A DNA stretch of 64,000 nt from Blastocatellia bacterium. GTDB taxonomy: Bacteria > Acidobacteriota > Blastocatellia > Pyrinomonadales > Pyrinomonadaceae. The DNA is taken from NCBI GenBank assembly GCA_003168335.1, contig PMSM01000002.1, forward strand, positions 124,001 to 188,000, in the 5' to 3' direction. Position numbers and translations under genes: made by a program. Positions 15,477 to 44,955 of this stretch are shown here, in pieces. Under the pieces are notes generated by a model that had not been told where the DNA came from, searched no databases, and saw only the letters and a list, made by a program, of their open reading frames with translations. Each line of letters begins with the position of its first letter. Position 1 is the stretch's first letter.

Positions 15477-15484
15477 GTTGTTGT

Positions 15485-15560: not shown

Positions 15561-15582
15561 ATTATCTATGCTCAAACGCAAG

Positions 15583-15604
15583 ATGGCGCGATTATGGCGC
15601 GATT
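15583..15604 (+). repeat. Arm-type direct repeats at left end of defence element
   Basis: ATGGCGCGATT occurs twice in perfect tandem (15583, 15594), 22 bases after the tRNA CCA and just inside the 3' end of the integrase gene at 15607. The same pair precedes the tRNA fragments at 24867 and 30937. A matched pair inside each element end is what attL/attR of a tyrosine recombinase element should show. Confidence 0.65.
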
Positions 15605-15606
15605 TT

Positions 15607-18824: not shown

Positions 18825-20540
18825 GTGAGCAAGAGATCACAACTCTGCACAACGCCTGATCGATCACGCCTCATGTCGAGAGTTCGGCAAACGGGGACAT
18901 CGCAAGAGCTGAACGTTCAGGCAATTCTTCAATCCTTAGGATATTTCTTTGATACGAAGGCGATTGACTTACCTGGGACACCTGACATCGTAAACCGGCC
19001 AGACAAATGGGCGATCTATGTTCACGGTTGTTTTTGGCATGCACACAAATGTCCTCTCTGGAAGATTCCAAAAACGAATCCGCAGTTCTGGCGAGAGAAA
19101 TTTGTAGCCAACAAGCGACGTGACAAAACAAAGCTCAAGCAACTAAGGAAGCGTGGCTATTCAGTTCTGACTTTATGGCAGTGTCAATTAAACAATCAAA
19201 GCACAGCTGTTGCGTTGGTCAGAAAATTCATGGCGAAGGTCGAATCGAATGGATTCGTCAATGGTCATAATGTAACCGTAAAACAGCGTCAGCCCGAACA
19301 AGCTCTGGGCAGACGCGAAGCTTACATATACGACGAACAAAAAAAGCTCATTTCACGCAAGGTGAACAAGAACAATGGAGAGGCTTTCGTAAGCACGCTC
19401 CAGGTTGGCGAAAGTCCACGAAGACGTGATTCACATGCGACTTTTGATCAAGCTTTTCTCAGGAATAGCGAAAAAGTACGTCATGGAAGCCTTAAGGGAA
19501 CCGTAAGAGTGGTGGATTTGTTTTCTGGGTGTGGGGGCCTTTCCCTAGGAGTTCGCGAAGCCTCCATTGCCCTGGGCTACAAGTTTGATCCTTTACTCGC
19601 AGTCGATGAGAACGCTGCGAGTTTGAAAGTTTATATCGATAATTTCGATCCGCGATTCGTATCCGATTGTGATATTTGTGACATTCTCACAGGGAAAATC
19701 GGAGACACCCTGCAGCCTGAAGAGCGCGCGTTGATCAAGGGCCTTGGTTCTGTTCACGTTCTTTTGGCCGGCCCTCCGTGTCAAGGGCACTCTGATCTGA
19801 ACAACCACACTCGTAGGATAGATAAGCGGAACAAGCTTTATGATAGGGTCGCGAGGTTCGCACAACTTGCCGGACCTGAACACATCCTGATTGAGAATGT
19901 ACCAGCCGTAATTCACGGGCGAGGGCGAGTTGTAGAAAAGACAGTAACTCAGTTGCAGCGACTTGGCTATAACGTTGATACCGGAGTGGTTGATTTGGCC
20001 GAGCTAGGCGTCCCACAAAGGCGGAAGCGGCACATATTGATCGCATCACACTCTAGATGCTTGTCGGTTCATGATGTGGTTGAGGCGCACAAGGTTGAGA
20101 CTCCCCGGAATATCAGATGGGCAATAGGCGATATCAAAGCGACAATGGACAATGGAGCGTTTGATCGTCCGTCCGAACTGCACGGCTCCAATCTGAGTCG
20201 AGTCAACTACCTTTTCAGAACAGAGCGTTATGACTTGCCGAATAGATTGAGACCAATTTGTCATCAGCGTGAACATTCCTATAAATCGATGTACGGGCGT
20301 CTTAAGTACGCCGAACTCTCTCAGACAATCACTAGTGGTTTTGGGTCTCCTGGTCAGGGTCGTTTCATACATCCTGCACGACCAACAACCCTAACCCCGC
20401 ATGAGGCTGCAAGATTGCAATTCTTTCCCGACTCATTTGACTTCTCTTCTGCACGACTTCGAACTTCATTAGCTAATATGATCGGAAATGCAGTGCCAAT
20501 GAAGTTGTCCTACGCGTTTTGCATGGAGTTCATCAGCTAA
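18825..20540 (+). CDS. Vsr-type endonuclease fused to C5 cytosine DNA methyltransferase
   Basis: 571 residues. Residues 1-130 are a Vsr/PD-(D/E)xK-like nuclease: RSRLMSRVRQTGTSQELNVQ, LPGTPDIV with the catalytic Asp, YVHGCFWHAHKC, W-x-EKF-x-N-x-RRD and VLTLWQCQL. After a ~90-residue linker, residues ~225-571 are a complete m5C methyltransferase: DLFSGCGGLS (SAM site), AGPPCQGHS (catalytic Cys), IENVPAV, and GVPQRRKRHILIAS (motif VIII). Vsr normally nicks T:G mismatches made by m5C deamination and is a separate protein; here it is the N-terminus of the methylase. It heads a four-gene operon and overlaps the next start (TAATG at 20538). Role: restriction-modification or marking of self DNA. Confidence 0.9.
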   Translation: MSKRSQLCTTPDRSRLMSRVRQTGTSQELNVQAILQSLGYFFDTKAIDLPGTPDIVNRPDKWAIYVHGCFWHAHKCPLWKIPKTNPQFWREKFVANKRRDKTKLKQLRKRGYSVLTLWQCQLNNQSTAVALVRKFMAKVESNGFVNGHNVTVKQRQPEQALGRREAYIYDEQKKLISRKVNKNNGEAFVSTLQVGESPRRRDSHATFDQAFLRNSEKVRHGSLKGTVRVVDLFSGCGGLSLGVREASIALGYKFDPLLAVDENAASLKVYIDNFDPRFVSDCDICDILTGKIGDTLQPEERALIKGLGSVHVLLAGPPCQGHSDLNNHTRRIDKRNKLYDRVARFAQLAGPEHILIENVPAVIHGRGRVVEKTVTQLQRLGYNVDTGVVDLAELGVPQRRKRHILIASHSRCLSVHDVVEAHKVETPRNIRWAIGDIKATMDNGAFDRPSELHGSNLSRVNYLFRTERYDLPNRLRPICHQREHSYKSMYGRLKYAELSQTITSGFGSPGQGRFIHPARPTTLTPHEAARLQFFPDSFDFSSARLRTSLANMIGNAVPMKLSYAFCMEFIS

Positions 20541-22789
20541 TGGCAAATCTGCAGAAACGCCCAACGACGGCTATCGCCTTGGCGAAGAATACTTCGAAGA
20601 AGCCAAAGCTGGAATCAATAAACTTCACAGTTGATTCGGCCATGCTAAGAGAGTTAGGCGAGCGTCTAGTCGGCCAACCGCATATCGCGTTAGCAGAGCT
20701 AATCAAGAACAGTTATGACGCGGATGCAACCAATGTGATGATCAAGTTCGACCATGATCGTATTGAAGTCTCAGACAATGGTCATGGAATGGATTTTAGA
20801 GAATTCAAAAATTTTTGGATGAGGATCGGGTCTGCTCACAAACAGGAGCTGCAGTTCTCTAGGAACTTCCAACGCCCAGTCACTGGATCAAAAGGAGTGG
20901 GCCGTTTGGCGGTTCAGTTCCTTGGAAACAAAATCGAACTGCGCACAGTCTCCGAAAATGACGAGAATTCTGAACTGCAAGCATACGTCAATTGGGATGA
21001 AGCAGTTCAGGCTGGAGACCTTACAGAGGCACAAGCCAAATATCGCGAGATTTCTAGCGAGTCTTCATTCCCCGGCGATTCAAGCCATGGAACAGCGGTT
21101 GTCCTGGTGGGTCTCAGCCAGAAGTGGACAACTCCAGAGATAGTTAATCTTGCTCGAGAGATTTGGTGGTTGCAACCGCCGTTTCGAAGCAATCCTCGCT
21201 TGAAGTCAGACAGACAAAGACAGTTCACCGTTGAAATTAAGAGCCCAGATCCGAAGACCGTGGAAGAATTTGAACGGCAAATGCGTGCGTATCTTGATAT
21301 CTGGTATGCGCGTCTCGTTGGTAGGTTAGAGTCGACAGATGGAGGCGTTGGTGGGTCAGGTAAGGTGCAGCTTTATCTTGAGTTCTCAGACGAAACGAAG
21401 ACCAAATGGAGTTATTCTGCACCCCGCGCATTGAAGTCGCTGGAGTTTGAGATTCGTGTCTTTCACCTTAAATACAGACAACCGCATGGAATTCAGGTTG
21501 ACTACGCAAGAAAGTATTTGAACGAACATGGCGGGGTACACGTCTATGACGCCGGATTTCATTTGCCCTACTACGGGGTTGAGCACGACTGGTTGGACAT
21601 CGAAATAGATCACTCCCATCGATTATCCAGATCGAAATTGCTACCAGACTCGCTGCAGGTTGTGGAAGGGATGAACTTTCTTCCCACTCAGACGCGGCTC
21701 TTTGGCGTTGTTCACGTTGACACATCAGCCGAGCGCAGGTTTGCATCAAGAAGCAAGCAGAAAACTCCTGAATGCCTTCAAATTCAAATATCCCGTGATC
21801 GTTTAGTCGATAATCATGCATACCGAGCGCTCCGATCCATCATCAGAACGGCCGTTGATTTTTACGCGATGGAGGAAGCGAAAAGAGCGCTTGAAAGAGC
21901 TGAAGCGCTTCGTCCTATCGAACGTGCTAGCGAGAAGTTTCAAAGAGTTGATGAAGTACTCTCAAGCTTTCGTAATGAGATTCCGAAACCCGTATATAGC
22001 AAGTTACGCGAGAACGTTAGGGACGCTATTGAAGCGAGTCAAACGGAAGCCGAACTAGTCAGCCGACAAGTTGGGCTCTTGGGATCGTTGGCCACAGCAG
22101 GGATTTCTGCGCTGGCTTATGAACACGAGGTAAACGTTCAGATGCACTTGCTTGAGGAAGTTGTTGATCAAATTGAACACATGGCGAAGGGCGGCCGGAG
22201 CGAACGAAACCTTGGCGGTCTTTCTAAGAGACTGCGCGAATGGTTAGAGCGTGCGAGGTCAACTCGAGCTTTGTTCTCTTCGCTTCTGAACGAAGAAAAC
22301 AGGATCGCAAAGGGAAGATTCAAGGCTAAGGCAATCGTAGAAGACGTAAAGATACAAATTCAATCAGTAGCACGCGGCGTGGAAATAGACACCAACGACG
22401 TAGATGAATCCTTAAGATTTCCAGAGGCAGGGTATCCAGAGTGGAGCGCGATTTTTCAGAATGTATTTATCAACGCGATAAATGCAATGCTTGATTCAAA
22501 GAGGAGAAAGATCGCAGTTTCCTCCGGCTCGTTTGGTCGTGAGAGGCGGATCTTAGTTCAAGACACAGGTTCAGGAGTCGACCTAGAGTCAGCTGACGAC
22601 TTATTCAAGCCATTTGTAAGGAGGACACAGATATCTCGGGCTAGGCGGGAACTGGGGCTTGGGGGTACTGGGCTTGGTCTGACGATCGTTCGGATGATTG
22701 CGGCAAATCTGGACTGCAAAGTCAGCTTCGTGAAACCACAGGGTAACTTCAAGAGTGCGTTTCAACTCTCGTGGAAGGAATTGAGATGA
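20540..22789 (+). CDS. Histidine kinase with MORC/Hsp90-like N-terminal ATPase
   Basis: 749 residues from the ATG at 20540 (GGAG 12 bases upstream; an in-frame ATG at 20519 lacks a SD). The N-terminal GHKL ATPase has AELIKNSYDADA (N box), DNGHGM (G1) and GSKGVGRLA, like MORC, MutL and Hsp90. About 230 residues follow with no known motif, then helices. The C-terminal half is a histidine kinase: an H-box in ISALAYEHEV (His about 529), NVFINAINAM (N box about 640), QDTGSGVD and GTGLGLTIVR. No TM segment, so it is cytoplasmic. Two GHKL ATPases in one chain, one of them sensory in position, is unusual. ATGA overlap with the receiver gene shows coupling. Confidence 0.85.
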   Translation: MANLQKRPTTAIALAKNTSKKPKLESINFTVDSAMLRELGERLVGQPHIALAELIKNSYDADATNVMIKFDHDRIEVSDNGHGMDFREFKNFWMRIGSAHKQELQFSRNFQRPVTGSKGVGRLAVQFLGNKIELRTVSENDENSELQAYVNWDEAVQAGDLTEAQAKYREISSESSFPGDSSHGTAVVLVGLSQKWTTPEIVNLAREIWWLQPPFRSNPRLKSDRQRQFTVEIKSPDPKTVEEFERQMRAYLDIWYARLVGRLESTDGGVGGSGKVQLYLEFSDETKTKWSYSAPRALKSLEFEIRVFHLKYRQPHGIQVDYARKYLNEHGGVHVYDAGFHLPYYGVEHDWLDIEIDHSHRLSRSKLLPDSLQVVEGMNFLPTQTRLFGVVHVDTSAERRFASRSKQKTPECLQIQISRDRLVDNHAYRALRSIIRTAVDFYAMEEAKRALERAEALRPIERASEKFQRVDEVLSSFRNEIPKPVYSKLRENVRDAIEASQTEAELVSRQVGLLGSLATAGISALAYEHEVNVQMHLLEEVVDQIEHMAKGGRSERNLGGLSKRLREWLERARSTRALFSSLLNEENRIAKGRFKAKAIVEDVKIQIQSVARGVEIDTNDVDESLRFPEAGYPEWSAIFQNVFINAINAMLDSKRRKIAVSSGSFGRERRILVQDTGSGVDLESADDLFKPFVRRTQISRARRELGLGGTGLGLTIVRMIAANLDCKVSFVKPQGNFKSAFQLSWKELR

Positions 22790-24006
22790 AAAAGAAAAAG
22801 ATTCTGATTTGCGACGACGTAACGAATGTTCGTCAGCTATGGAAGAAGACTCTTGAGCAGATTCCTTTCGTCAAGCGCCATTTTGAAATACAGATCCTCG
22901 GCGATCAGTTTGGGGATACGTTGAAGGCGCTGGAAAAGAGACGTCGCGAGGCTAGAGAGACAAAAAAACACAGTAAGTGGAAGACAAATATTTTTGATTC
23001 AGCGTCGATCTTGATAGTTGATTACGACCTGCTCGACTTCAGTAGAGAAGATTACATAACCGGGGAAGGCGTTGCATATCTGGCGAGGTGTTACTCGCGA
23101 TGCGGACTGATAATCGCGTTGAATCAATTTGGCGTTAACTCATTTGATTTGACTTTGAAATCCAATCCTGACTCGTTTGCGGACCTTAACTTAGGAAGCG
23201 ACCAACTTGATAATCCGGGACTGTGGGTTGAGCCTTGGAATGGTTTTCGACCTTGGCATTGGCCCTTGCTCCCCGCTGCGCTGGAAGCCTTTGAACGCCG
23301 CGTAAGAGAACTCAAAGGGAATCTTGACAGATCGGTACTCGGTTATTTGGGCTTCAAGAAGGCAGTATCCGAGGCGTTACCTCGATCTACGCGGGAATTC
23401 CTGGGAAGCGGTGACAAACCCGAGACGGTGAAGTTTAGAGAATTCGTCCAAGAATCTGGCAAGGGATTACAAAGAAAAGATCGAGCTGCCGATGATGAAT
23501 CGCTTGCCCGCATTGCGGCAGCTAGAGTTGCCAAATGGCTTGAACGACTTGTCGTTTCAGGCCAAGAAGTTCTTGTTGATGCTCCTCATCTGATAGCTCG
23601 TTTTCCGAGCCTGCTTAATGGACAAAAGGGTAGGATTGAAACTTGGAATAAGACAGCGTCATTAAAAGGAATAACGAGTTTAGGTATCCGACAACGCCAA
23701 ATCGCTGATTTCCGATTTCAAAAAGACAATTGGGTTTCCAGACCTGTTTGGTTTTGGAAAGCGCTGAGTAACCTTGAGGACATTGAAGAAGTTGCCGATC
23801 CTTGGTCGACAGAAACTAGAGACTTCGTCTTCTGTGAAGACGTTTCCAAATTCTTACCAAGTGAAGAAACGAGAGAATTTGTAGCAGATCTAGCCTCTCC
23901 ATTCGTGCGCCGTTTTGTTGCAGACCATAATCCAAAAGCTCTCAAACGGCTGGGTTCTACCCTCAAAAAAGTTGAGTATGTTCCGGCTGTTCGCTTTTCC
24001 CTCTAG
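22786..24006 (+). CDS. Divergent receiver-domain protein with unknown C-terminal domain
   Basis: 406 residues from the ATG at 22786 (GGAA 6 bases before; overlaps the kinase stop). KKILICDDV gives the acidic pair of a receiver; after a ~45-residue charged insertion, SILIVDYDLLDF carries the likely phosphoacceptor Asp. The receiver ends near residue 120. The rest has no HTH and no output domain I recognise; WVEPWNGFRPWHWPLLP is a notable Trp-rich motif and the tail is mixed helix. It is the obvious phosphotransfer partner of the upstream histidine kinase. The C-terminal region would be the effector or would bind one. Confidence 0.75.
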   Translation: MKKKKILICDDVTNVRQLWKKTLEQIPFVKRHFEIQILGDQFGDTLKALEKRRREARETKKHSKWKTNIFDSASILIVDYDLLDFSREDYITGEGVAYLARCYSRCGLIIALNQFGVNSFDLTLKSNPDSFADLNLGSDQLDNPGLWVEPWNGFRPWHWPLLPAALEAFERRVRELKGNLDRSVLGYLGFKKAVSEALPRSTREFLGSGDKPETVKFREFVQESGKGLQRKDRAADDESLARIAAARVAKWLERLVVSGQEVLVDAPHLIARFPSLLNGQKGRIETWNKTASLKGITSLGIRQRQIADFRFQKDNWVSRPVWFWKALSNLEDIEEVADPWSTETRDFVFCEDVSKFLPSEETREFVADLASPFVRRFVADHNPKALKRLGSTLKKVEYVPAVRFSL

Positions 24007-24024
24007 TGCTCAAGAACAAACGCT

Positions 24025-24858
24025 ATGGCTCAAGAACCAGTGTACGATCAGGAATTGAAACTCTTTCGGGATTTGTTCATAGCAATTTGGGATCATCACC
24101 GAAAGCCCTGGCTGCGTTTCAGGGGCCAAGCAAAAGACATCTTTCAGGAGATAGGGACTACATTCAATACCTTGAGTACCGTAGAGGAGCTTGAGGCATC
24201 TTTACCATCCGAAGCTCGAGTGAGCGCGGAATTTCCGCCGAATAGATTTCTTTATCTTAACCCTATCACGATCGGTGGAACTTTGCTTCCGCTTATTCGA
24301 CTTAAGTGTGATTTTGGGCGCTCAATTCCAGAGGTCCGGGTTCGCATGGGATTGTTTCTAAAGTATGGAGTAGATACAAAAGCGATCGGATATCGATTGG
24401 AATCACCTGAAGGCCCCGGCGCCCATCACTATTATCATCTGCAAATGATTAGGGGATTTGACCGCCACTCTCACTTCACGACTGACGACTGCCTTAGCTG
24501 GTTCCCCGATCAATCTCCAACTTTCCCTCTCGATGCTGACAGTCCTGTCAGGTTGATTCTGAGTCTACTGATCGGTCTTTACGGACTTCTTGAGACGGGC
24601 ACGATGCTCAGAGACACCGGCCTCACGGCTCGCGCGAAGCCATACCTTGATAAAATGTCCTGCTTTTCGATGTTGCCAATCGAATGGTATTGGAGAGTCC
24701 TTAAGCAGGGCGCCTCGAAACACGAATTTTACAGAACACCAAAAGAACCAGCAGTGTTCAGAAGAGACTTCAGACAACATGCGGGGAGCAAGCTAGAAGC
24801 AATCACGGAAGGATTCTACAAGGCACAATCGAGGAAGAATCAGCGGGTGCATTTATGA
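24025..24858 (+). CDS. Hypothetical protein, last gene of the defence-like operon
   Basis: 277 residues, soluble. Features: FRDLFIAIWDHHRKPWLRFRGQAK near the N-terminus, GPGAHHYYHLQMIRGFDRH in the middle, a hydrophobic segment RLILSLLIGLYGLLETGTML, and a basic C-terminus. I do not recognise the family and see no nuclease motif I would defend. It begins 18 bases after the receiver gene stop with no clear SD, so its translation may depend on the upstream gene. It is followed directly by the right end of the element, which is the usual limit of cargo. Confidence 0.65.
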   Translation: MAQEPVYDQELKLFRDLFIAIWDHHRKPWLRFRGQAKDIFQEIGTTFNTLSTVEELEASLPSEARVSAEFPPNRFLYLNPITIGGTLLPLIRLKCDFGRSIPEVRVRMGLFLKYGVDTKAIGYRLESPEGPGAHHYYHLQMIRGFDRHSHFTTDDCLSWFPDQSPTFPLDADSPVRLILSLLIGLYGLLETGTMLRDTGLTARAKPYLDKMSCFSMLPIEWYWRVLKQGASKHEFYRTPKEPAVFRRDFRQHAGSKLEAITEGFYKAQSRKNQRVHL

Positions 24859-32810: not shown

Positions 32811-32960
32811 TCAGTAAGCAAAAACAGATTCGACTGAGGGCGATAAGATCACCCTTCAGTACGCGCTGAAATAACAGCGGCTGGCGAAGTCGTCTGCTGT
32901 TGCGCAATTTCCGTGCGTGGCTCGAAACTGCAGATCGGTGTGCGATTCGAACAGGGAAAA

Positions 32961-35186
32961 ATGATGAAGAGTATTTACGCAATCTCGGGCTGTGTGCTAC
33001 TGCTTTTTTGTTGTGTGGTCACGGCATCAGCTTCTGTCTTCGGTGACGTGAACGGGACGGTGATTGATCCGCAACAGCAGGCAATTGCGGCAGCAAAGAT
33101 AACGCTGCTTTCCCGTTCGTCTTCGTTGACGCGAACGACCGACACCGACAACGCTGGAGAGTTCTCTTTCCGCGCGGTGCCGATCGGTGAATACAACGTG
33201 ACGGTTGAATCCGGCGGATTCAGTAAATCCACGCTGGCGTTGACCGTCCTCTCCGATCGCACGACTGTCTTGAGCGTGCAGCTGAAGATTGCGCCGGTGT
33301 CGCAACGGGTTGAAGTTAGAGTTGAACCGGGTCGGGTGGATTCGGACTCGGCTACCCTGGTCACGTTAGTGAGCCGCAAACAGATTGCGCAAACGCCCGG
33401 CGCGAGTCGCACGAACAGCCTCGCGATGATCACGGACTATGTGCCCGGCGCCGTGATCACGCACAATCAACTTCACATTCGCGGTGGTCATCAGGTTACG
33501 TGGCTCGTCGATGGGGTTCCCGTTCCCAACACAAACATTGCCGATACGGTCGGACCGCAATTCGATCCCAAGGACGTCGATTACCTCGAAGTCCAGCGCG
33601 GCAGTTACACGGCCGAATACGGTGACCGCACTTATGCGATGTTCAATGTCGTGCCGCGCAGCGGGTTTGAACGTGACCGCGAAGCGGAGTTGCTGGTTTC
33701 CTACGGCAATTTCAATCAGACAAACGATCAGTTGAGTTTCGCCGATCACACAAAGCGTTTTGCTTACTATACGAGCTTCAACGGCAATCGCAGCGACTAC
33801 GGCCTTGAGACTCCAGTTCCGCAGGTGCTCCACGATCAGAGCAACGGCTTTGGGGGCTTTGCTTCTTTGATCTTCAACGCCAATCCGAAAGATCAGTTTC
33901 GGCTGGTAACCGCGGTGCGGCGGGATTTCTTTCAAGTGCCGAACGATCAGATGGCGCAAGATGCCGGCATTCGTGATGTCGAACGGGAACGCGACGCCTT
34001 TATCAATTTCAGTTGGATGCGCACGCTCAACAGCAAACTACTGTTGACCGTCTCACCCTTTTATCACTACACGCGGGCGGCTTTCATCGGCGGGCCGAAC
34101 GACACCCCGGTGAGCGCGCGTGATGAACGCAGCTCACAATACGGCGGCGCGCAAATCGTCTTGAGCGCGCTCACGCGACATCACAACGCAAAGGTTGGCT
34201 TCTACGGTTTCTGGCAGCGCGATGACGCTTTCTTCCGTCTGCAGGGCGAGGATGGCAACGGCAACCCCGTCAACTTGCAGCAACGAGAAAACCCGCAAGG
34301 AAATTTGGCGGCGTTCTTCGTCGAAGATCAGTACAAACCGCTATCGTGGCTGACGCTGAGCGGCGGCCTGCGGTTCACGCGGTTTCGCGGTTCATTGACA
34401 GAGAATGCGACCAGCCCGCGCGCGGGTGTGGCCATTCGCATTCCGCGTGTGAATATCGTTTTGCACGGGTTCTATGGACGCTTCTATCAAGCGCCGCCGC
34501 TCTCCACGATTTCCGGCCCGTTGCTCCAATTTGCCCTGGCCCAGGGTGTCGACTTCATTCCTTTGCGCGGCGAGCGCGACGAAGAGTATCAATTCGGTGC
34601 GACACTTCCGATCAAGGGTTGGGCCATCGACGCCGGCTACTTCCATACCACGGCGAAGAACTTTTTCGATCACGATGCACTGGGGAACTCGAACATCTTC
34701 TTTCCCCTGACCATCGAGCGAGCGCGCATTCGGGCGTTCGAGTTGACGGCGCGTTCGCCGCAGCTATTCAAACGAGGCCAGTTCTATCTCGCTTACTCGC
34801 ATCAACGCGCGGAAGGTCAGGGCCTGGTCACTGGTGGACTGACGGACTTCTCGCCACCGGCGGATCTTTTCTTCCTCGATCACGACCAGCGCGACACGTT
34901 GAGCTCCGGCTTTACGATTAATCTTCCGTCGCGCAGTTACGTCTCGGGGAACGTTCGTTACGGGTCGGGCTTTCTTGAAGGTGACGGGCCGAATCATCTG
35001 CCCGCTCAGACGACGTTTGACGTCTCGTTCGGCAAAGGGTTTGGCGAGTACTGGCTGGTCGCGCTGCAAGCGGTGAACATAACTAACAATCGATTCCTGC
35101 TGGACAGCGCCAACACGTTCGGCGGCACGCACTTTTCCGAGCCGCGACAGATCTACGTCGAGTTGCGCTATCGGTTTCATTACTAG
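32961..35186 (+). CDS. TonB-dependent outer membrane receptor with CarboxypepD_reg domain
   Basis: About 741 residues. The start is at the paired ATGs 32961/32964 after AGGGA; a longer frame from 32913 would bury the signal peptide. A signal (SIYAISGCVLLLFCCVVTASA) is followed by a carboxypeptidase-regulatory-like Ig domain (GDVNGTVIDPQQQAIAAAKI, about 25-110). The plug has HIRGGHQVTWLVDGVPVPN and VDYLEVQRGSYTAEYGDR. The beta-barrel ends with the aromatic-terminated strand YVELRYRFHY. The ligand is unknown; the upstream Cys-rich secreted protein suggests a metal or metal complex. Confidence 0.88.
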   Translation: MMKSIYAISGCVLLLFCCVVTASASVFGDVNGTVIDPQQQAIAAAKITLLSRSSSLTRTTDTDNAGEFSFRAVPIGEYNVTVESGGFSKSTLALTVLSDRTTVLSVQLKIAPVSQRVEVRVEPGRVDSDSATLVTLVSRKQIAQTPGASRTNSLAMITDYVPGAVITHNQLHIRGGHQVTWLVDGVPVPNTNIADTVGPQFDPKDVDYLEVQRGSYTAEYGDRTYAMFNVVPRSGFERDREAELLVSYGNFNQTNDQLSFADHTKRFAYYTSFNGNRSDYGLETPVPQVLHDQSNGFGGFASLIFNANPKDQFRLVTAVRRDFFQVPNDQMAQDAGIRDVERERDAFINFSWMRTLNSKLLLTVSPFYHYTRAAFIGGPNDTPVSARDERSSQYGGAQIVLSALTRHHNAKVGFYGFWQRDDAFFRLQGEDGNGNPVNLQQRENPQGNLAAFFVEDQYKPLSWLTLSGGLRFTRFRGSLTENATSPRAGVAIRIPRVNIVLHGFYGRFYQAPPLSTISGPLLQFALAQGVDFIPLRGERDEEYQFGATLPIKGWAIDAGYFHTTAKNFFDHDALGNSNIFFPLTIERARIRAFELTARSPQLFKRGQFYLAYSHQRAEGQGLVTGGLTDFSPPADLFFLDHDQRDTLSSGFTINLPSRSYVSGNVRYGSGFLEGDGPNHLPAQTTFDVSFGKGFGEYWLVALQAVNITNNRFLLDSANTFGGTHFSEPRQIYVELRYRFHY

Positions 35187-36546: not shown

Positions 36547-37305
36547 TTACTGCTTCGTAGCTTTCTCAGTCCCGGTCTTATCGGTACCGTAGCCGCCCCA
36601 GATTCCTTCCATCGTTCCATCAGACTTGATCTCGTAAGCCACGAATCCGCAGCGCGCGCCGCCAATTCCCACCGCGACGTTATTGCCCTGCTTGATGCCC
36701 ACGCCATCGGTGTTGTTGCTCCAGACAAATCTGTAGAGATTGCCGGCCGGCTCGACCGTTAGTTTCGTTTTGTATCCCTGGCCGTCGGGATTCTTGCCCG
36801 TTGCGTCATAGTCTCCTAACAGACCTGAGCCGCTGGTCCGCGCGGCTTTTTCAGTGCCGGCTTCATTAGTTCCCCAGTAACCCCATTTGCCGTCAAGCGC
36901 GCCGTCGCCGGTGATTTCATAGTCAACCACGCCACAGCCTTTGCCGTTCTTTCCGTTGGCAAAGGCCACCGCGACGACAGTGCCGTTGGCCACGCCGACG
37001 CCGTCGTACTGAGTTCCGGCGTTCCAGCGAAACTGGTAGACATCACCATGCTGAATGACTTCCAGGGTGCCTTTATAGACGCCGCCGTCAGGATTGCTGC
37101 CGCTCACATTGTACTTGCCCGCGATATCCGGGAGCGGGGCGGGCGCGCTGTTGGTAGTGGTGGTCGTGCTGCTCGTGTTCTTGGCAGCGTCGGTCTTCGT
37201 CGGCGTCGTCGAAGAGGTAGAGCTGCCGGCCGACTTGCAGCCGATCACGCACGCAATCAGTAGAACGACGGCCATCGCCGCATGATGTCGGGATTGTAGT
37301 TTCAT
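36547..37305 (-). CDS. Lipoprotein with duplicated beta domain
   Basis: 252 residues. The lipoprotein signal ends in a LIACVIGC lipobox, followed by a Ser/Thr-rich linker. Two ~85-residue repeats follow: GKYNVSGSNPDGGVYKGTLEV ... CGVVDYEITGDGALDGKWGYWG and GDYDATGKNPDGQGYKTKLTV ... CGFVAYEIKSDGTMEGIWGGYG. Each repeat looks like a small beta-barrel of the kind seen in periplasmic binding or fibronectin-like lipoproteins; the family is not known to me. A periplasmic or outer-membrane location is expected. Confidence 0.75.
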   Translation of the reverse strand: MKLQSRHHAAMAVVLLIACVIGCKSAGSSTSSTTPTKTDAAKNTSSTTTTTNSAPAPLPDIAGKYNVSGSNPDGGVYKGTLEVIQHGDVYQFRWNAGTQYDGVGVANGTVVAVAFANGKNGKGCGVVDYEITGDGALDGKWGYWGTNEAGTEKAARTSGSGLLGDYDATGKNPDGQGYKTKLTVEPAGNLYRFVWSNNTDGVGIKQGNNVAVGIGGARCGFVAYEIKSDGTMEGIWGGYGTDKTGTEKATKQ

Positions 37306-37350: not shown

Positions 37351-39507
37351 CTACCTCATTCCCGGCGGGCCGCCCATACCGGGGATTCCCATTCCATCAA
37401 TCGGAGTGCCAGGAGCGTGGCCGGACGACCCCTGACCCTGGCCGCCGCCGGCGCGGGTGCGAAACAGCGACGGATCTACGTTCTTCAATTCGTAAAGCGT
37501 CTTGTAGAGGCCTTCGCGTTTGATTAGCTCTTCATGCGTGCCCTGATCGACTATGCGTCCCTTGTCAATCACGAGAATTCGATCCGAAACTGCTGCCACG
37601 AAGTTGAGATCATGGGTGATCACAATACACGTGCGCTCGGTCGCGTATTCTCGGATCACCGCGATGAGTCGATTGCGTTGGTCGGCATCCAGATTCTCCG
37701 TGGGCTCGTCGAGTAACAGCATCTCCGGCTTACGCAGCAGGCATCGCGCCAGCGCGATCAGACGCTTCTGACCACCCGACGGTATTTGCACGTCAACCAC
37801 CGTGTCGTAGCCTTTTGGCATTCTCTGCGGATCGACGATCACGTCGTGGATATGCGCCAGCTCGCAGGCTTCCTCAACTTCCTTGTCGGTCGCGCTGGAC
37901 CTGCCGAGTCTGACGTTTTCTCGAATCGTGTCTTTCAGGAAAAACGGAAACTGTGAAAGTTTCGATACCTGTTCCCGCAATGAATTGAGGGTCACGCCTG
38001 AGATGTCTTCGCCTTCGATCAGGATTTGTCCCTGTTGCGGATCAAGAAAACGCAGAATCAAATTCATGATCGTGGATTTGCCACAGCCAATGCCGCCCAC
38101 GAGCGCGATCGTTTCGCCTTCCTTGATCTCGAAGGAAACATGGTTCAGGACAGTTTGCGTCGGCGAGTAACCGAAAACGACATTGTCGAACGTGATGTCG
38201 CCGTGGACGTCGCCTAAAGATTTAGCTCCCGGCTTTTCGACTACGGTTGGCTTGGTATCAATTAATTCATAGGTTGAGACGATGCCGGGCACCAGCGATT
38301 GGTACATCGTGTACGAGCCCACCAGCCGCTGCACGGGCGTGAAAAGGTTGGGCGCCATTTGCATGAAAACGATCACGCTCGAAAACGTCATCCCCCACTT
38401 TGCTCCGAGGAGAATGGCGACCAACATGACCATCGCCGTCGTCAGCGCGATGAAAATCTGCGCCCCGCTGTTACTCAGGCTCATCCAGGCGGTGGTTGCG
38501 GCGGTGCTTTTGGCGGCCACCTTTGAAGCTTCGCGAAAGCGATCGCTCCGTTTCTGTTGCGCGTTGAAGACCTGGATATCTGAAATGCCGCTGATCGTTT
38601 CTTCGAGTTCGGCGCCCAGCTCTCGGGAACTCAGGTTTATCCCCAGGGCGCCTGCCTGCAACTTGCCGCTGGTGTAACGGAACATCAGCAGCGTGAGCGG
38701 CGCCAGCACAAACAACACCAGAGTCATCTGCCAACTCAGCGCCAGCAAATACGCGATGACGATTATCATCACCAGCACGTCGACCACCGGCGTGAGCAGG
38801 ACCTGCGTCAACAAGCGTTGGACTGTGCCCGTCTCAGACAAGACTCGCTGCATCAAGGCGCCCGTTTGCCCGCCCATAAAGAAATCCAGCGACAGCGATT
38901 GGATGTGATCGTAGACGTGTTGTCGTAATGACGATAACAGTCGCTGCTCGAGGTTGGCATCAACCCAGGCCCGACCAATATCGAGCACGTTGCGAAAAAC
39001 AATCGACACTGTCCAGATGATAAAAATCGTGGTGAAAGTAAGCGGAGTCGAGAGCCAATTCCGGATCCCAGCGGGCGGAAACCATCCAACATCCGGCCCT
39101 GACGAGGACACATCGTAGAAGGAATCCTTCAGAGTCCAGACCGTGCCCAGGTCACCATTTTGCGCCGCTTTAGCGAGGAGTTTAAACAGTGGGCCCATCG
39201 CGGCTGCCGCCACGAACGGCAACAGGCACATGATCAGAGATAGCGTGAGCGACAAAGCCACGATCGCTTTGTGTCCATTCAAGAGTTTGAGCGCGCGTTT
39301 CAGATAGGGGCGCGCATTCATCTTGGGCATCGTCTTCATGCGAATTTTGCTGCCCGGGCCTGGCATGGGCGGTTCGCCGCTGAGGCCTTCAGGCAGTGCC
39401 CCGGGTAACACGGCATCGCGCGGCAAAGCATTGGGTGGCACAGCGTCAGGCGGCAATCCGCCAACGGGCTTATTGGAGCCGGGAGGCGGAGTCTGAGAAC
39501 TCGACAT
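37351..39507 (-). CDS. ABC exporter (fused membrane and ATPase domains)
   Basis: 718 residues. A Pro/Gly-rich N-terminal tail of ~70 residues precedes a six-helix exporter domain (ALSLTLSLIMCLLPFVAAAAM, FTTIFIIWTVSIVF, LALSWQMTLVLFVLAPLTL) and an ATPase with GGIGCGKST, signature IPSGGQKRLIALARC, LLLDEPTENLD and the ITHD switch His. The C-tail is Gly/Pro rich. There is no C39 peptidase domain, so it would not itself cut a leader. It lies downstream of the Cys-rich precursor gene across a terminator, and is the best candidate to export that peptide. Confidence 0.88.
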   Translation of the reverse strand: MSSSQTPPPGSNKPVGGLPPDAVPPNALPRDAVLPGALPEGLSGEPPMPGPGSKIRMKTMPKMNARPYLKRALKLLNGHKAIVALSLTLSLIMCLLPFVAAAAMGPLFKLLAKAAQNGDLGTVWTLKDSFYDVSSSGPDVGWFPPAGIRNWLSTPLTFTTIFIIWTVSIVFRNVLDIGRAWVDANLEQRLLSSLRQHVYDHIQSLSLDFFMGGQTGALMQRVLSETGTVQRLLTQVLLTPVVDVLVMIIVIAYLLALSWQMTLVLFVLAPLTLLMFRYTSGKLQAGALGINLSSRELGAELEETISGISDIQVFNAQQKRSDRFREASKVAAKSTAATTAWMSLSNSGAQIFIALTTAMVMLVAILLGAKWGMTFSSVIVFMQMAPNLFTPVQRLVGSYTMYQSLVPGIVSTYELIDTKPTVVEKPGAKSLGDVHGDITFDNVVFGYSPTQTVLNHVSFEIKEGETIALVGGIGCGKSTIMNLILRFLDPQQGQILIEGEDISGVTLNSLREQVSKLSQFPFFLKDTIRENVRLGRSSATDKEVEEACELAHIHDVIVDPQRMPKGYDTVVDVQIPSGGQKRLIALARCLLRKPEMLLLDEPTENLDADQRNRLIAVIREYATERTCIVITHDLNFVAAVSDRILVIDKGRIVDQGTHEELIKREGLYKTLYELKNVDPSLFRTRAGGGQGQGSSGHAPGTPIDGMGIPGMGGPPGMR

Positions 39508-39582
39508 GATGTTCCTCTTTCATCTGCGTAGGGACTAGAAAAGAATTGAAAAACTCGAGCGAAGGTAAAACAAAACACAGCA

Positions 39583-39611
39583 GGCGGGCAAGTTTTGAAT
39601 GCTTGCCCGCC
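39583..39611 (-). terminator. Terminator between precursor peptide and exporter
   Basis: Perfect 10-bp stem GGCGGGCAAG (39583-39592) / CTTGCCCGCC (39602-39611) with a 9-base loop. On the minus strand it is followed by TGCTGTGTTTTGTTTTACC. It sits about 100 bases after the precursor stop and 75 before the exporter start. Such a partial terminator after the first small gene is typical of peptide operons, where the precursor must be made in excess. Confidence 0.7.
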
Positions 39612-39713
39612 CGCTAGATAGTTCGCTGCACTAGTCGTGCGAGTGAACGATTGCCACGGCAGAAACCTCTGTTCGGCCACCGTTGTTCTGGTTCAGCCAA
39701 ACGTCGAGCGTTC

Positions 39714-40004
39714 TTAACAGTAGCAATAGTAGTAATGCCACCAGCAGCCGTAGGCATTGCAAAGAAGTTCGCGACAAACGCAGATATCGCCGTAGGCCTG
39801 AACCTCACCCAGGCTTTCGGCGTTCTCTACCTTGACCTTGTTCGCGCCAGCCTTGGAAATTTCGGCGCCCGCAGTCTTCCCGGCCTCGGGAAACATTTGC
39901 GCTGCCTTGTCGCCTGTAACGGCATACTGTGAAAGTACGCTATCAGGAACGTCATATACACTGACCTTATCGTCCGCTCCTGCGGTTGATGTCAAAATCG
40001 CCAT
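39714..40004 (-). CDS. Precursor-like peptide with six-Cys C-terminal core
   Basis: 96 residues, ATG at 40004 with an excellent AAAGGAG 9 bases before it. The first ~74 residues are a charged, helical leader-like region (DKVSVYDVPDSVLSQYAVTG, AAQMFPEAGKTAGAEI). The last 22 residues hold six cysteines spaced C-x-C-x4-C-x4-C-x6-C-x-C, with WWHYYY between the fourth and fifth, and no Ser or Thr at all. That excludes lanthionine formation and favours disulfides, metal binding or other Cys chemistry. Flanking genes encode a thioredoxin-fold protein and an ABC exporter; no LanM, YcaO or radical SAM enzyme is in the window nearby. I call it a putative RiPP or secreted Cys-rich peptide precursor. Confidence 0.7.
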   Translation of the reverse strand: MAILTSTAGADDKVSVYDVPDSVLSQYAVTGDKAAQMFPEAGKTAGAEISKAGANKVKVENAESLGEVQAYGDICVCRELLCNAYGCWWHYYYCYC

Positions 40005-40031
40005 TATAGTTTCTCCTTTGAATCAAGTCTG

Positions 40032-40049
40032 GAGGAATATGCATTCCTC
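40032..40049. promoter_or_regulatory. Palindrome upstream of the precursor peptide
   Basis: GAGGAAT (40032-40038) and ATTCCTC (40043-40049) are perfect complements around ATGC, 27 bases upstream of the precursor start codon. Symmetry and position suit an operator or a 5' leader hairpin. The rest of the upstream gap to 40341 shows no gene. Confidence 0.35.
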
Positions 40050-40341
40050 AGTTGTTGAACCGGCCTGATTAATGAGCCCTGTCGGCCTCATCAACTTCGG
40101 CCATTTTCACATTCGCCCGAACCAGTGTGGGAAAAATTACGAATTAGACTGGCTCGATCCCGATCTTCAATCTGATAAACTCTCTCCAGACTGGGCGCAG
40201 AGCATAGCGATAACCACGCCTTTAAGTTCCCGGCGCCCAACTCAGAGCAGAGCCTTAACAAAATCAAAGTATTGAAGCGAACGCATCCTAACAGCCATGA
40301 CGTAAACGGGCAAGCTTTTTTGCGCCCATGAGCAATAGTTT

Positions 40342-41181
40342 CTAAACTGATTCGTTGAGACATTGTTGCAACATCTCATCAAAACCCGGGTCTTCTCCAC
40401 CGGGTCCTGCATAGCGCACCACGCCCTGACGATCAATCAACACGACGGTCGGGAGCCCGTTTGCACCGTAGATTGCTTGCAAACGCTCGTCCTCTGCGAC
40501 GCCTACGGCAAAACCCACTCCGTGATCGGTGACCATGGCGCTCATCAATTGCAACTCTTCCGCAATTGATTCGTCAGTGCCGCCATAGGCCATGTAATGT
40601 CGGGTGATCGCGGTGATTTCCAGACCGCGCAAGGACTCTTGCTCATGGAGGCTTTTCAATTTTGGAAACATCTCTTGACACGGTTTGCACCATGTCGCCC
40701 AGAATTCCAGCAGCACGACTCGGCCCCGCAAGTCTGCCAGCGCGACGGGCCCGCCCTTAATCCAGGTTTTGACCGTGATGTCAGGAGCTGTCTGGCCAAT
40801 GAGCGCTAATTGGGTGGCGCGGTCGCGTACCTGAAGATAGCCGCTGGTGGCGGCGCGTCTTTGGGCCGGCGTCCCCGTCGCTCGCATGATCTCGGAAATC
40901 TTCTCAGCAAACGCGACTTCGTCTGCCAGTAGATCGCGCGCGTCTTGAATTTGATCAAGCGAAAGGTAAATGTCCGAGAGCGTCATTCCCAGTCGAATGC
41001 GTGTTTGAAACTCAATCTCGTAGGGGGTGGCGCGGGCCGCGGCCAGAACTCTCTCTAATTCGGTTGCTGCTTCGCTCAGTTTTCCGGCCCGCTGCAAACC
41101 CGCAGCGAGATCCAGGCCGGCGGTCACATGGATCTGCGGCGCGATCGTTTGTCCAGTGGACACTTCCGATTCAACACTCAT
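40342..41181 (-). CDS. Thioredoxin-fold (TlpA/AhpC-TSA-like) protein with helical N-terminal domain
   Basis: 279 residues from the ATG at 41181 (a further upstream start at 41244 is less likely). The C-terminal domain has GQTAPDITVKTW, VVLLEFWATWCKPCQEMFPKL with a CxxC active site, and GLPTVVLIDRQGVVRY with the cis-Pro. The N-terminal ~130 residues are TPR-like helices. There is no signal peptide or lipobox, so it looks cytoplasmic, unlike most TlpA proteins. It is 337 bases upstream of the Cys-rich peptide gene on the same strand and could handle its cysteines. Confidence 0.8.
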   Translation of the reverse strand: MSVESEVSTGQTIAPQIHVTAGLDLAAGLQRAGKLSEAATELERVLAAARATPYEIEFQTRIRLGMTLSDIYLSLDQIQDARDLLADEVAFAEKISEIMRATGTPAQRRAATSGYLQVRDRATQLALIGQTAPDITVKTWIKGGPVALADLRGRVVLLEFWATWCKPCQEMFPKLKSLHEQESLRGLEITAITRHYMAYGGTDESIAEELQLMSAMVTDHGVGFAVGVAEDERLQAIYGANGLPTVVLIDRQGVVRYAGPGGEDPGFDEMLQQCLNESV

Positions 41182-41544: not shown

Positions 41545-42384
41545 ATGAGCGAACAAGTTCCCGGCAACGAGAACGAAAAATCCCCGGCCAGAGCTGGCCC
41601 CAGGAGCAAGTCTTCCGCGGCGCAAGTGAGTGAGGTCATCAGCCTGATAGATGTCTCGAACTCACTGGCGGTGCCGCTCAAACGCGCTATCGACGATATC
41701 CTGCAACTGGCAGCGGGGTCGGTTGGCTCAGCGGTCGCCTCCGTGCTCGTGCGCGATGGCGATGAGGGTGGCTTGAAGTTTCTGACCGCAACCAGCGGAG
41801 TTTCAGATCAGTTGTTGGCGTTGCGTCTGCCGCCGGGAGCAGGCATAGCAGGATTGGTCTTTTCAACACATCAACCGATGGCGGTCGCTGACGTCTCGAA
41901 TGACGGTTCCTTCTGGTCAGAGGCTGATCGGCGTACCGGTTTCAAGACAATCACGGTGCTGGCCACGCCACTGCGGGCCAATGGTGAGATGGTCGGGGTG
42001 CTGGAGTTCATCAATCGCCCTGGCGATCCACCGTATCCACCGTTCACGCCAGCCGAGATGGACAGCGGGTCTCGCTTTGCGGACGCCATAGCTCAACTTG
42101 TCGATGCGTACGAAATTGCGCAACTGGTTGAGTCTCTCTTCAATTACTCACTCAAAACTTCCGTGACCGCGACTTCTCCGGCCAACCGCGAAAATGATCT
42201 GCGCGAGTGGCTCGAAAACAGCTCGGCTGCTGCTGAGCATCGCGATCTCCTGATGTTATGGGTTTCTTTGCGTGAGATTGTGACTCGCGGCGGCGCTGAA
42301 CGAGAGTTCTGCCGGAATTTGCTGGAGATGATCGCGCGGTTTACGGCGGGGCGATCGGGAGACGGAAGTAATTTCGGATTTTGA
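41545..42384 (+). CDS. GAF-domain protein
   Basis: 279 residues. Residues ~30-190 form a GAF domain: SNSLAVPLKRAIDDILQLA, SVASVLVRDG-like core, LRLPPGAGIAGLVFSTHQPMAVADV and TVLATPLRANGEMVGVLEFINR. The C-terminal ~80 residues are helical and without motif. GAF domains bind small ligands or mediate dimerisation. It is the first of four same-strand genes (GAF, subtilase, sigma factor, anti-sigma factor) with 29 bases to the next, so an input role for that group is likely. Confidence 0.82.
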   Translation: MSEQVPGNENEKSPARAGPRSKSSAAQVSEVISLIDVSNSLAVPLKRAIDDILQLAAGSVGSAVASVLVRDGDEGGLKFLTATSGVSDQLLALRLPPGAGIAGLVFSTHQPMAVADVSNDGSFWSEADRRTGFKTITVLATPLRANGEMVGVLEFINRPGDPPYPPFTPAEMDSGSRFADAIAQLVDAYEIAQLVESLFNYSLKTSVTATSPANRENDLREWLENSSAAAEHRDLLMLWVSLREIVTRGGAEREFCRNLLEMIARFTAGRSGDGSNFGF

Positions 42385-42413: not shown

Positions 42414-43253
42414 ATGGCTCTTGACATCGTCGCAGAAGCGACGGAGACGACCGCAGACCTGTGGGCCGCCATCCAGCCAGAGACGCTCTGGCAGGGGCGC
42501 ACCGGGCGCGGTGTCCGCGTAGCCGTCGTTGACAGCGGCATCGATACTGAACATCCGGATCTGAAAGGCAAGGTTAAGGAATCAGTCGAAGCGGTGACAG
42601 AGGATGGCCGCATCGAGTTCCGTCCATCGACCTCTGGCGATCAAGCCGGACACGGCACCGCCTGCGCCGGAATCATTACCAGCATCGCGCCGGACGTTGA
42701 TCTTTATAGCGTGAAAGTGCTCGGCCCAAAGGGTTCAGGCTCAGGCGACATGTTTCTGGTAGGACTCGATTACGCCATCAAACAGAAGTTCCGGGTCATC
42801 AACCTCTCTTTAGGCACAACCAAGCGCGATTTTTTTGCGCCCCTGCACGATCTATTGGACCGCGCGTATCAAGCTGGCTGCGTCGTGGTATCCGCGGCCA
42901 ACAATCTTCCTTACCCGAGCTACCCTTCGATTTTTTCGTCCTCGGTAGTGTCAGTGGTCAAGAGGGCCGGCGGTGACCCTTTCAACTTCGGCTATCGCTA
43001 TGGGCAGGTCATCGAGCTGGTCGCGCCGGGCGTGGAGGTGAAGACGACCTGGCCGGGAGGGGGCTATCGGCAGTTAACGGGCAACAGTTTTGCGTGTCCT
43101 CATGTTGTCGGCATCATCGCTCTGATAGTAGAGGCGTACCCGAACCTGACGCCGTTTCAAATCAAGACAATCCTTTACACGATTGCTCAACGCAATCGAG
43201 AAAAGGCGGCCGCGCTCGCCCAGAATCCTGATTCCGGCAAGCCGCAGAGCTAA
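42414..43253 (+). CDS. Cytoplasmic subtilisin-like (S8) serine protease
   Basis: 279 residues, almost entirely an S8 catalytic domain. Triad: Asp in VAVVDSGIDTEHPDL, His in GHGTACAGI, Ser in GNSFACPHV. The usual GTSMA around Ser is GNSFA. An oxyanion Asn lies in VVSAANN. There is no signal peptide and no propeptide, so the enzyme should act in the cytoplasm. Neighbours are a GAF protein and a sigma/anti-sigma pair; it could degrade the anti-sigma factor, or be the leader peptidase for the Cys-rich peptide 2.4 kb away. Both roles are inference. Confidence 0.85.
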   Translation: MALDIVAEATETTADLWAAIQPETLWQGRTGRGVRVAVVDSGIDTEHPDLKGKVKESVEAVTEDGRIEFRPSTSGDQAGHGTACAGIITSIAPDVDLYSVKVLGPKGSGSGDMFLVGLDYAIKQKFRVINLSLGTTKRDFFAPLHDLLDRAYQAGCVVVSAANNLPYPSYPSIFSSSVVSVVKRAGGDPFNFGYRYGQVIELVAPGVEVKTTWPGGGYRQLTGNSFACPHVVGIIALIVEAYPNLTPFQIKTILYTIAQRNREKAAALAQNPDSGKPQS

Positions 43254-43374: not shown

Positions 43375-44493
43375 TTGTTTGGACAAGCTCTTTGCCAATA
43401 TAATGGGCGAACTTTGATCGATAAGCACGCTCTTCTCGTCACCAAGTCATCTCGAGCAGAGTTTTTAAGTAATCTAGCTGTGTGCGCCGCCGAACTGGAT
43501 GCGATCTATGCCGTTTGTGCGGAATCCCATTCAGACTTTGACTTGTCAGCGGCAGACTTTCGAGATGCGGTGATCGGGGCCATCAATAAATATCTGATTG
43601 GTTCCAGAGAGGGACGCGTGGTGCCATCCGCTCACGAGATCTCTCGGTTCATCGGCGAGCTCCAGGATCGTGATCTCTTCCTGGCGCTGGCTTGCGCCCG
43701 CGGCAACGAACAGGCCTGGTGGGAGTTTGATCGCCAGTACCGCTCGTTCATAGAACGCTGGGCCCGTCATCTGGTGCGCGGCGGAACGGATGCTGATGAG
43801 GTGATAGATTCGGTCTATGTCGAGCTTTTTGGAACCAGGATCTCAGGCGGTGTGCGGCAATCAAAGTTCAGGACCTATACCGGCCGCGGATCATTGCGTG
43901 GCTGGCTGCGCGCCGTCATATTGCATACCGTCGTGGATTTGTATCGAGGGCGAAAGCCGGAAATTCCTTTGGAAGACTGGTCGGGCATCGACGAAGCACG
44001 TGAACCGCACGGCCGATTCGCCGAGAGCCGCGGGACCGAGGAGATAATGTTGGCGAGTGTAGTGCGCGACCGTTACCAATCAGCGACCAATGCCGCCCTC
44101 GATCAATCGTTGGCGGCCCTTGACGATCACGAGACGTTGTTGCTGCTCTACTATCACGTTGAGGGTCTCAAGCTCCGAGAGATCGCCCGCATCGTCGAGC
44201 AGCCCAGGTCGCCTATTCGGCGTTGGTTCCAGCGACAGTCAAAACGGCGCGGCACAGGCCCACCAAGCCGGGTGCACGAATCAACCGTGATGCGTTGGCT
44301 GGAGAAGGTTTACAAAAAAGTTTCGGACCGTTTCCATGCCGAATTGGCGGACAAGCACGGCCTGAACGCCGCGGAAATCGAGATTTGCCGGAACATCGCC
44401 ACCGAAGATCCGGCGCAAGGCGTGCGGCTGGATCGCGCCGTTGCCGGAAATGACAAGTTTAATAAGGAAGAGGCAGCAAAGGCGCCAGGCTGA
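43375..44493 (+). CDS. ECF-type RNA polymerase sigma factor, extended
   Basis: 372 residues from a TTG at 43375; the start is uncertain. Region 2 resembles ACARGNEQAWWEFDRQYRSFIERWA and GTDADEVIDSVYVELFG, followed by GRGSLRGWLRAVILHTVVDLYR. Region 4 is ALDDHETLLLLYYHVEGLKLREIARIV. Extra N-terminal (~100) and C-terminal (~100) parts make it about twice the usual ECF size. The next gene encodes a zinc-finger anti-sigma-like protein 9 bases downstream. It likely directs transcription of targets not visible here. Confidence 0.82.
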   Translation: MFGQALCQYNGRTLIDKHALLVTKSSRAEFLSNLAVCAAELDAIYAVCAESHSDFDLSAADFRDAVIGAINKYLIGSREGRVVPSAHEISRFIGELQDRDLFLALACARGNEQAWWEFDRQYRSFIERWARHLVRGGTDADEVIDSVYVELFGTRISGGVRQSKFRTYTGRGSLRGWLRAVILHTVVDLYRGRKPEIPLEDWSGIDEAREPHGRFAESRGTEEIMLASVVRDRYQSATNAALDQSLAALDDHETLLLLYYHVEGLKLREIARIVEQPRSPIRRWFQRQSKRRGTGPPSRVHESTVMRWLEKVYKKVSDRFHAELADKHGLNAAEIEICRNIATEDPAQGVRLDRAVAGNDKFNKEEAAKAPG

Positions 44494-44502
44494 AGGCGCC
44501 TC

Positions 44503-44955
44503 GTGACGAAAACGGTGACCCGACCAGAAGCAAAAAAAGAGACGGAAGCCATGCGCCACATGATCCACGAGCGACTGAAAGCCCGTCTGGCGGCTGCATC
44601 ACCCGCGCTGGAAGGCCATCTCGACGAGGATGCCATCTGCGCCTTTGTCGAAGGCCGGCTGGAAGAGGCCGAAAGCTCACCCGTGATCTCGCATTTGATC
44701 GCTTGCGGACCTTGCCGTCAAACGACCGCTCAACTCGTTCGCTTCGATTCTGAGTTCGCTCCTGAAAATGAATTAACGCCGTTCGAGGAGAGTCCGGGTC
44801 GAGTGCGTCTGCTTCTCGATCGCCTGGCTGCGCGCCTGGCGCCGTCATTTGAAGAGGATGCCGTGTTCGCTTACCAGGAGCCGGGAGCAGAGCCCGATCA
44901 GAGCGCGAAAGTAATCACCGAATCCAAGCCGGAAACAGTAGACGACGGCGATTGA
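44503..44955 (+). CDS. Zinc-finger anti-sigma-factor-like protein (soluble)
   Basis: 150 residues, GTG start at 44503. HLDEDAICAFVEGRLEEAESSPVISHLIACGPCR has the H-x3-C-x2-C motif of the ZAS anti-sigma fold. No TM helix follows, so unlike many ZAS proteins it is cytoplasmic; the acidic C-terminus (EEDAVFAYQEPG) is low complexity. It is coupled to the ECF sigma gene. Control would have to come from inside the cell, for example from the GAF protein or the subtilase. Confidence 0.75.
   Translation: MTKTVTRPEAKKETEAMRHMIHERLKARLAAASPALEGHLDEDAICAFVEGRLEEAESSPVISHLIACGPCRQTTAQLVRFDSEFAPENELTPFEESPGRVRLLLDRLAARLAPSFEEDAVFAYQEPGAEPDQSAKVITESKPETVDDGD

Follow-up and report, generated by a model that had tools for sequence, protein, structure and literature searches.

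A lineage-restricted family of leader-bearing, cysteine-rich peptides encoded with a thioredoxin-fold protein and an ABC exporter in Pyrinomonadaceae, with a predicted disulfide ladder

The DNA analysed here (the window, 64,000 nucleotides, positions 124,001 to 188,000 of contig PMSM01000002.1 of a Blastocatellia bacterium of the family Pyrinomonadaceae) carries a gene for a 96-residue precursor peptide, which is located between the gene for a thioredoxin-fold protein (TRX) and that for an ATP-binding cassette (ABC) exporter. Judging from the comparison of sequences, this gene set of a soil Acidobacteriota probably makes, trims, and exports a Cys- and Tyr-rich peptide with a disulfide ladder. 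The precursors are best read as a lineage-restricted family of leader-bearing disulfide peptides. TRX (40342-41181), the precursor gene, and the ABC gene (37351-39507) lie in this order on the minus strand, and the locus comprises the following parts.

39714-40004, minus strand: precursor peptide gene, 96 aa (open reading frame, homologues, and selection)
39792-40004, minus strand: predicted leader, residues 1-71 (alignment of homologues)
39717-39791, minus strand: predicted core, residues 72-96, with six Cys and seven Trp/Tyr (presuming cleavage after Y71)
39579-39615, minus strand: terminator-like hairpin between the precursor and ABC genes, with a U-rich tail to ~39565
37351-39507, minus strand: ABC exporter half-transporter, 718 aa (Pfam ABC_membrane and ABC_tran)
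40342-41181, minus strand: TRX, a TPR-like N-terminus and a thioredoxin domain resembling TlpA/ResA, with WCKPC (no signal peptide)

The Precursor Gene and Its Relatives

The precursor gene begins with ATG, ~9 nt downstream of AAAGGAG, and its product ends in GDICVCRELLCNAYGCWWHYYYCYC, in which the cysteines are arranged as C-x-C-x4-C-x4-C-x6-C-x-C after a VQAY motif. Precursor homologues are present in 11 of 119 genomes of Pyrinomonadaceae (the own genome and 10 more), often two in tandem, GGAG-type ribosome sites precede all 14 of the homologous starts examined, and the nonsynonymous rate (dN) is far below the synonymous rate (dS) within core types, indicating purifying selection on the precursor. 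Because of these homologues, ribosome sites, and substitution rates, the reading of 39714-40004 as a chance open reading frame (ORF) was rejected.

A profile search throughout the class returned the same 11 genomes, and a profile search of a sample of 396 genomes of the phylum gave nothing convincing beyond the family; a match in genome G486 (E 0.004, with an internal stop) was weak and taken as chance. The precursor matched no model in Pfam or NCBIfam, where its relatives gave just scattered, weak, chance-like matches, and nothing convincing was found among solved structures. No relative of the precursor was found in the plasmid, phage, and viral-contig collections, and a mobile or viral origin was rejected on that ground. 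A search of the literature for such systems in Acidobacteriota or Pyrinomonadaceae found nothing relevant.

The leader follows the pattern MAIxT..., YDxPDxxLxxY, and ends in VQAY (39792-39803); across 15 aligned sequences M1, A2, P20, L24, V68-Q69-A70-Y71, and two cysteines are invariant. Four core types follow VQAY, of which type A, that of the window, has six cysteines and types B, C, and D have four. Constraint is tighter on the type A and B cores than on their leaders (in type B at dS ~1, dN is 0.00-0.02 for the core versus 0.05-0.21 for the leader), and the type C core evolves at about the rate of its leader. The family has a ribosomal precursor with a conserved leader and a C-terminal core, as is expected of a ribosomally synthesized and post-translationally modified peptide (RiPP) in the broad sense. 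Genome G028 (L024 and L031) apparently has two tandem TRX-precursor-ABC units with different core types, one precursor gene being seemingly split over contig ends.

A second precursor copy in the own genome lies on another contig (L020:9229-9474, minus strand), distant from any TRX or ABC gene. It bears VESY in place of VQAY, a stop codon in the leader, and no intact start, and is a decayed or truncated paralogue. Its dN of ~0.27, with dS high or saturated, suggests that selection acted on it until the leader was disrupted, and it carries lower weight as evidence.

The Co-occurring TRX and ABC Exporter

Clustering of the ORFs around the homologues identified TRX, one or more precursors, and ABC as the recurring unit. 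Among the 119 family genomes, TRX matches at E < 1e-58 were found in 10, every one with a precursor, the next match being at 1e-36; ABC matches at E < 1e-130 were likewise found in 10 genomes, every one with a precursor. At these strict thresholds each gene is present in 10 of 11 precursor genomes versus 0 of 108 others (Fisher p ~1e-13 each, uncorrected for relatedness), and in the two exceptions, G023 for TRX and G024 for ABC, the absent gene would fall beyond the contig end. TRX carries an intact CxxC motif (WCKPC) with no visible signal peptide, and from its domain and motif it would act in the unit as a thiol oxidoreductase. The ABC exporter has a Pro-rich N-terminal extension, and no C39 peptidase domain was found in it by the Pfam scan.

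The hairpin at 39579-39615 has a GC-rich stem of 14 bp and a U-rich tail (z -5.7, zero shuffles equally stable); it is not listed by a consensus terminator scan, its loop being larger than the scan's loop limit of 8. In four of the five homologous loci folded, the gap between the precursor and ABC genes is also more stably structured than nearly all shuffles, the exception being L003. Such a hairpin after the precursor gene would allow a higher output of precursor than of exporter. Directly downstream of the ABC gene there is a lipoprotein-like ORF with two LIC10280-like repeats (36547-37305, minus strand), which is not conserved at other loci.

These results agree with much of a preliminary description of the locus made from its sequence. 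The 96-residue gene with its ribosome binding site and six-cysteine ending, the terminator and ABC exporter downstream, and the thioredoxin-fold protein upstream are all present in the order claimed on the minus strand, and the claim that this protein is cytoplasmic fits its lack of a visible signal peptide. The proposed coupling of a leader/core precursor to the thioredoxin-fold protein and the exporter is supported by their co-occurrence, and the homologues keep both a Cys core and the exporter (ABC in 10 of 11), so that the refuting condition set there, loss of either one, did not hold. In contrast, a core free of Ser and Thr, taken there as the defining feature, is peculiar to the window type, since homologue cores contain Ser and some Thr, and six cysteines characterize the window type but not the family. 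The description missed the VQAY motif, and its range stopped short of the two genes described next, to which the functional neighborhood extends at the least.

A Neighboring Subtilase and the Cleavage of the Leader

Because the ABC exporter has no C39 peptidase, a separate protease is expected. In the window two genes adjoin TRX and are transcribed divergently from it.

41545-42384, plus strand: GAF-domain protein, divergent from TRX and paired with the subtilase
42414-43253, plus strand: S8 subtilase, candidate leader peptidase (Asp-His-Ser triad intact, no signal peptide)

If the cut follows the Tyr, P4 of the (D/E)VQAY border between leader and core is Val and P2 is Ala. The cytoplasmic S8 protease ElxP requires (D/E)-5 (L/V)-4 x x Q-1, and PatA cleaves after G(L/V)E(A/P)S (PMC10885120). 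The border fits the (D/E)-5 (L/V)-4 x x pattern of ElxP and resembles the motif of PatA, sharing with these subtilases of the epilancin 15X and cyanobactin systems a Val/Leu four residues before the cut; unlike in those systems, the residue preceding the predicted cut is Tyr, not Gln or Ser, and no lanthionine or azoline enzymes were found in the window ORFs scanned. By this analogy, the S8 subtilase is most likely the protease that cuts after Y71.

The cassette adjoins the GAF-S8 pair in all eight genomes that allow the test (G000, G113, G118, G097, G027, G023, G028, and G001), in one of two layouts, in which either TRX and GAF diverge or ABC and S8 converge; in G001 just TRX adjoins the pair and the precursor-ABC part lies apart from S8. 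The S8 gene is present in 64 of the 119 family genomes. In the S8 tree, one long branch (100/100) sets off all 10 proteins from precursor genomes, along with three others, a divergence that may stem from co-adaptation or simply from host phylogeny. In the many precursor-less family genomes inspected (L087-L103), the GAF-S8 pair mostly has S41 on one side and paired M16 peptidase genes on the other. The presence of the pair without the cassette indicates that it is older than the cassette or was retained after the loss of the cassette, and is not specific to it. Since the M16 and S41 genes flank the pair in genomes without the cassette, they are old neighbors, and these peptidases were rejected as maturation enzymes.

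It is possible, although we are doubtful, that the GAF-subtilase pair is a bystander and that another protease removes the leader, or that it is not removed and the peptide is exported with it, which would be compatible with a disulfide peptide. The many precursor-less genomes with the pair, as well as the separate precursor-ABC part of G001, speak for this explanation, while the adjacency in every resolvable genome in two layouts (TRX still adjoining in G001), the strong divergence of the cassette-bearing S8 branch, and the invariant VQAY at the leader/core border speak against it.

Paired Loss of Cysteines and a Predicted Disulfide Ladder

Counted from the Tyr of VQAY, the cysteines are at offsets 4, 6, 11, 16, 23, and 25 in type A, at 6, 11, 17, and 24 in type B, and at 4, 6, 21, and 25 in types C and D; counted from the corresponding Tyr, they are at 4, 11, 16, and 25 in the own paralogue. 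By position and spacing, the missing cysteines are C1 and C6 in type B, C3 and C4 in types C and D, and C2 and C5 in the paralogue. The cysteines are thus lost in pairs and each four-Cys form is without one rung, which predicts a nested ladder of C1-C6, C2-C5, and C3-C4. If two of the six cysteines were lost at random on three occasions, exactly this nested set would arise with a probability of 0.0018 and any perfect matching with one of 0.027, values that serve as a guide rather than a formal test, the nested pattern having been recognized from the same data. AlphaFold2 predicted a hairpin in the type A and type C cores with low confidence (mean predicted local distance difference test, pLDDT, 49 and 47), which is at most compatible with the ladder.

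The preliminary description had proposed either disulfides or a bound metal; the paired loss of cysteines favors the former. Metal binding would leave the precursor-TRX-ABC export unit as it is, with the cysteines forming a Cys4 site or scavenging copper or zinc and TRX keeping the thiols reduced for loading. Every form has four or six cysteines, with CxC in most, and TRX is cytoplasmic and TlpA/ResA-like, which speaks for this reading. We nevertheless consider it improbable, because each type retains a different set of cysteines and hence no fixed site; moreover, the losses are nested pairs and no metal gene recurs in the neighborhoods. The idea of a metallophore, prompted by the nearby TonB receptor encoded at 32913-35186, was rejected because the other loci do not share this receptor.

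Comparison with Known Systems

The pediocin PA-1 operon encodes a small disulfide peptide, a CxxC thioredoxin-fold protein, and an ABC exporter (PMC4919988). As with PedA, PedC, and PedD of this class IIa system, a dedicated thioredoxin-fold protein with a CxxC motif (WCKPC in TRX, 10/11 versus 0/108) and a dedicated ABC protein are encoded beside the peptide, an association that serves as a criterion within class II. Unlike PedC, a putative secreted protein, TRX has no signal peptide, and unlike PedD, which also excises the leader, the ABC exporter is without a C39 domain. The double-glycine leader of pediocin-like class II peptides is not conserved either, the border being (D/E)VQAY, with a preceding Gly-Gly in some type B rows only. 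The glycocins sublancin and pallidocin combine a disulfide peptide with thiol-disulfide oxidoreductases and an ABC exporter (PMC6405829). The present unit is similar to that of SunA, SunS, SunT, and BdbA/BdbB in having a disulfide peptide (here predicted), a putative thiol oxidoreductase, and an ABC exporter, but has no C39 peptidase and no adjoining DsbB-like partner; no SunS-type glycosyltransferase was identified in the cassette or its recurring neighbors. The system is not a member of the pediocin or glycocin families, and by analogy it is best read as working like the pediocin or sublancin systems with different processing parts. The suggestion of a new class in the preliminary description was therefore too strong; because of these precedents (pediocin PA-1 with PedC, sublancin with BdbA-BdbB), "new variant" is the better term until the chemistry is measured.

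In the maturation of quinohemoprotein amine dehydrogenase (Qhp), QhpC is first trimmed by the subtilase QhpE inside the cytoplasm and then exported by the ABC protein QhpF (PMC7876137). The likeness consists of a Cys-containing small protein, a signal-less subtilase predicted to act on the leader, and an efflux ABC exporter. The S8 protein scores 105 bits against the QhpE model, short of its cut-off of 165. The precursor differs, however, there are no dehydrogenase subunits, and neither the QhpD radical SAM protein nor the QhpG flavoprotein is encoded by the ORFs scanned near the cassette. Theta-defensins and animal beta-hairpin antimicrobials are disulfide-bridged beta-hairpins (PMC13001179); the similarity, here predicted from sequence, would be convergent at most, as the present peptides are bacterial, leader-bearing, linear, aromatic, and, in types A and B, hardly cationic.

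The qhp arrangement also brings to mind a RiPP with a covalent Cys or Trp/Tyr crosslink made by an enzyme encoded elsewhere, such as a radical SAM protein whose gene is not nearby, with TRX and ABC as accessories. The Cys- and aromatic-rich core, the subtilase, and the C39-less exporter are consistent with this explanation. We regard it as unlikely, given that no radical SAM, YcaO, LanM/LanC, P450, or MNIO domain was found in the window ORFs scanned, in line with the earlier statement that known RiPP maturases are missing, and that none of these enzymes is among the recurring neighbors identified; the scan covered all but a few of the window ORFs, and a distant tailoring enzyme could be encoded elsewhere in the genome. 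Enzymes of lanthipeptides, azole RiPPs, and sactipeptides are accordingly among those not found in the scanned ORFs.

Other Genes of the Window

Two further genes lie beyond the subtilase.

43375-44493, plus strand: sigma factor of the sigma-70 family (Myxococcales family 1-like), with the same linkage in two related genomes
44503-44955, plus strand: zf-HC2-like small protein, possible anti-sigma factor, traveling with the sigma gene

These two proteins may regulate the cassette; both recur in just two other genomes. Among the clustered neighbors, the "genes" of cluster C7 have no Pfam match, appear to be spurious antisense ORFs, and were set aside. Farther away, 18825-24858 (plus strand) encodes a Vsr endonuclease fused to a C5 cytosine methylase; next come a HATPase protein that weakly resembles type II restriction enzymes and two unknown proteins. 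Two phage-integrase genes are present at 14280-16749. The region 18825-24858 looks like a restriction/defense island close to a mobile element.

Proposed Pathway and Role

With moderate confidence, we favor as the explanation of the whole a secreted disulfide-rich peptide that depends on TRX, trimming by the subtilase, and ABC export, and that closes as a nested ladder. The 96-residue precursor would be made and recognized by the machinery through its conserved N-terminal leader, and within the cytoplasm the TPR-thioredoxin would act on its cysteines, either maintaining their reduced state or shuffling them. The adjoining signal-less subtilase would cut after (D/E)VQAY to free a core of 24-29 residues, which the dedicated, peptidase-less ABC exporter would pump from the cytoplasm. 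Outside, the cysteines would pair as C1-C6, C2-C5, and C3-C4 across a Trp/Tyr-rich beta-hairpin.

Several observations weigh against this explanation. One of the three paired losses is that of the paralogue with a stop in its leader, so intact genes supply two. The structure models are poor, and in type C the hairpin register disagrees with the predicted rungs. Thioredoxins of the cytoplasm normally reduce disulfides instead of forming them. The S8 gene is found in 54 precursor-less genomes, with GAF wherever inspected, so that the subtilase serves, or once served, some other function and could be a bystander, and contig breaks bar the adjacency test in three genomes.

As to role, the type B cores are identical or nearly so in three genera, and this conservation across genera speaks against a fast-diversifying toxin. 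It suggests that the partner is conserved too, which would suit a signal or structural peptide better than a bacteriocin in an arms race; type A and B cores are also hardly cationic, unlike animal beta-hairpin antimicrobials. A bolder proposal, which we offer only tentatively, is that these peptides may form a new class of modular cystine-ladder, Trp/Tyr-rich beta-hairpins, in which rungs are gained and lost pairwise, the leader is read by a cytoplasmic TPR-thioredoxin, a VQAY-specific subtilase and a peptidase-less ABC exporter complete the pathway, and the role is a conserved, non-toxin one such as signaling.

The family adds a precursor without a Pfam or NCBIfam match from a hardly studied group of soil bacteria, and its disulfide pattern, cleavage site, and maturase are sharply testable predictions. 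Should TRX indeed act on the cytoplasmic precursor, peptides matured in this way may escape searches that start from the known RiPP enzymes.

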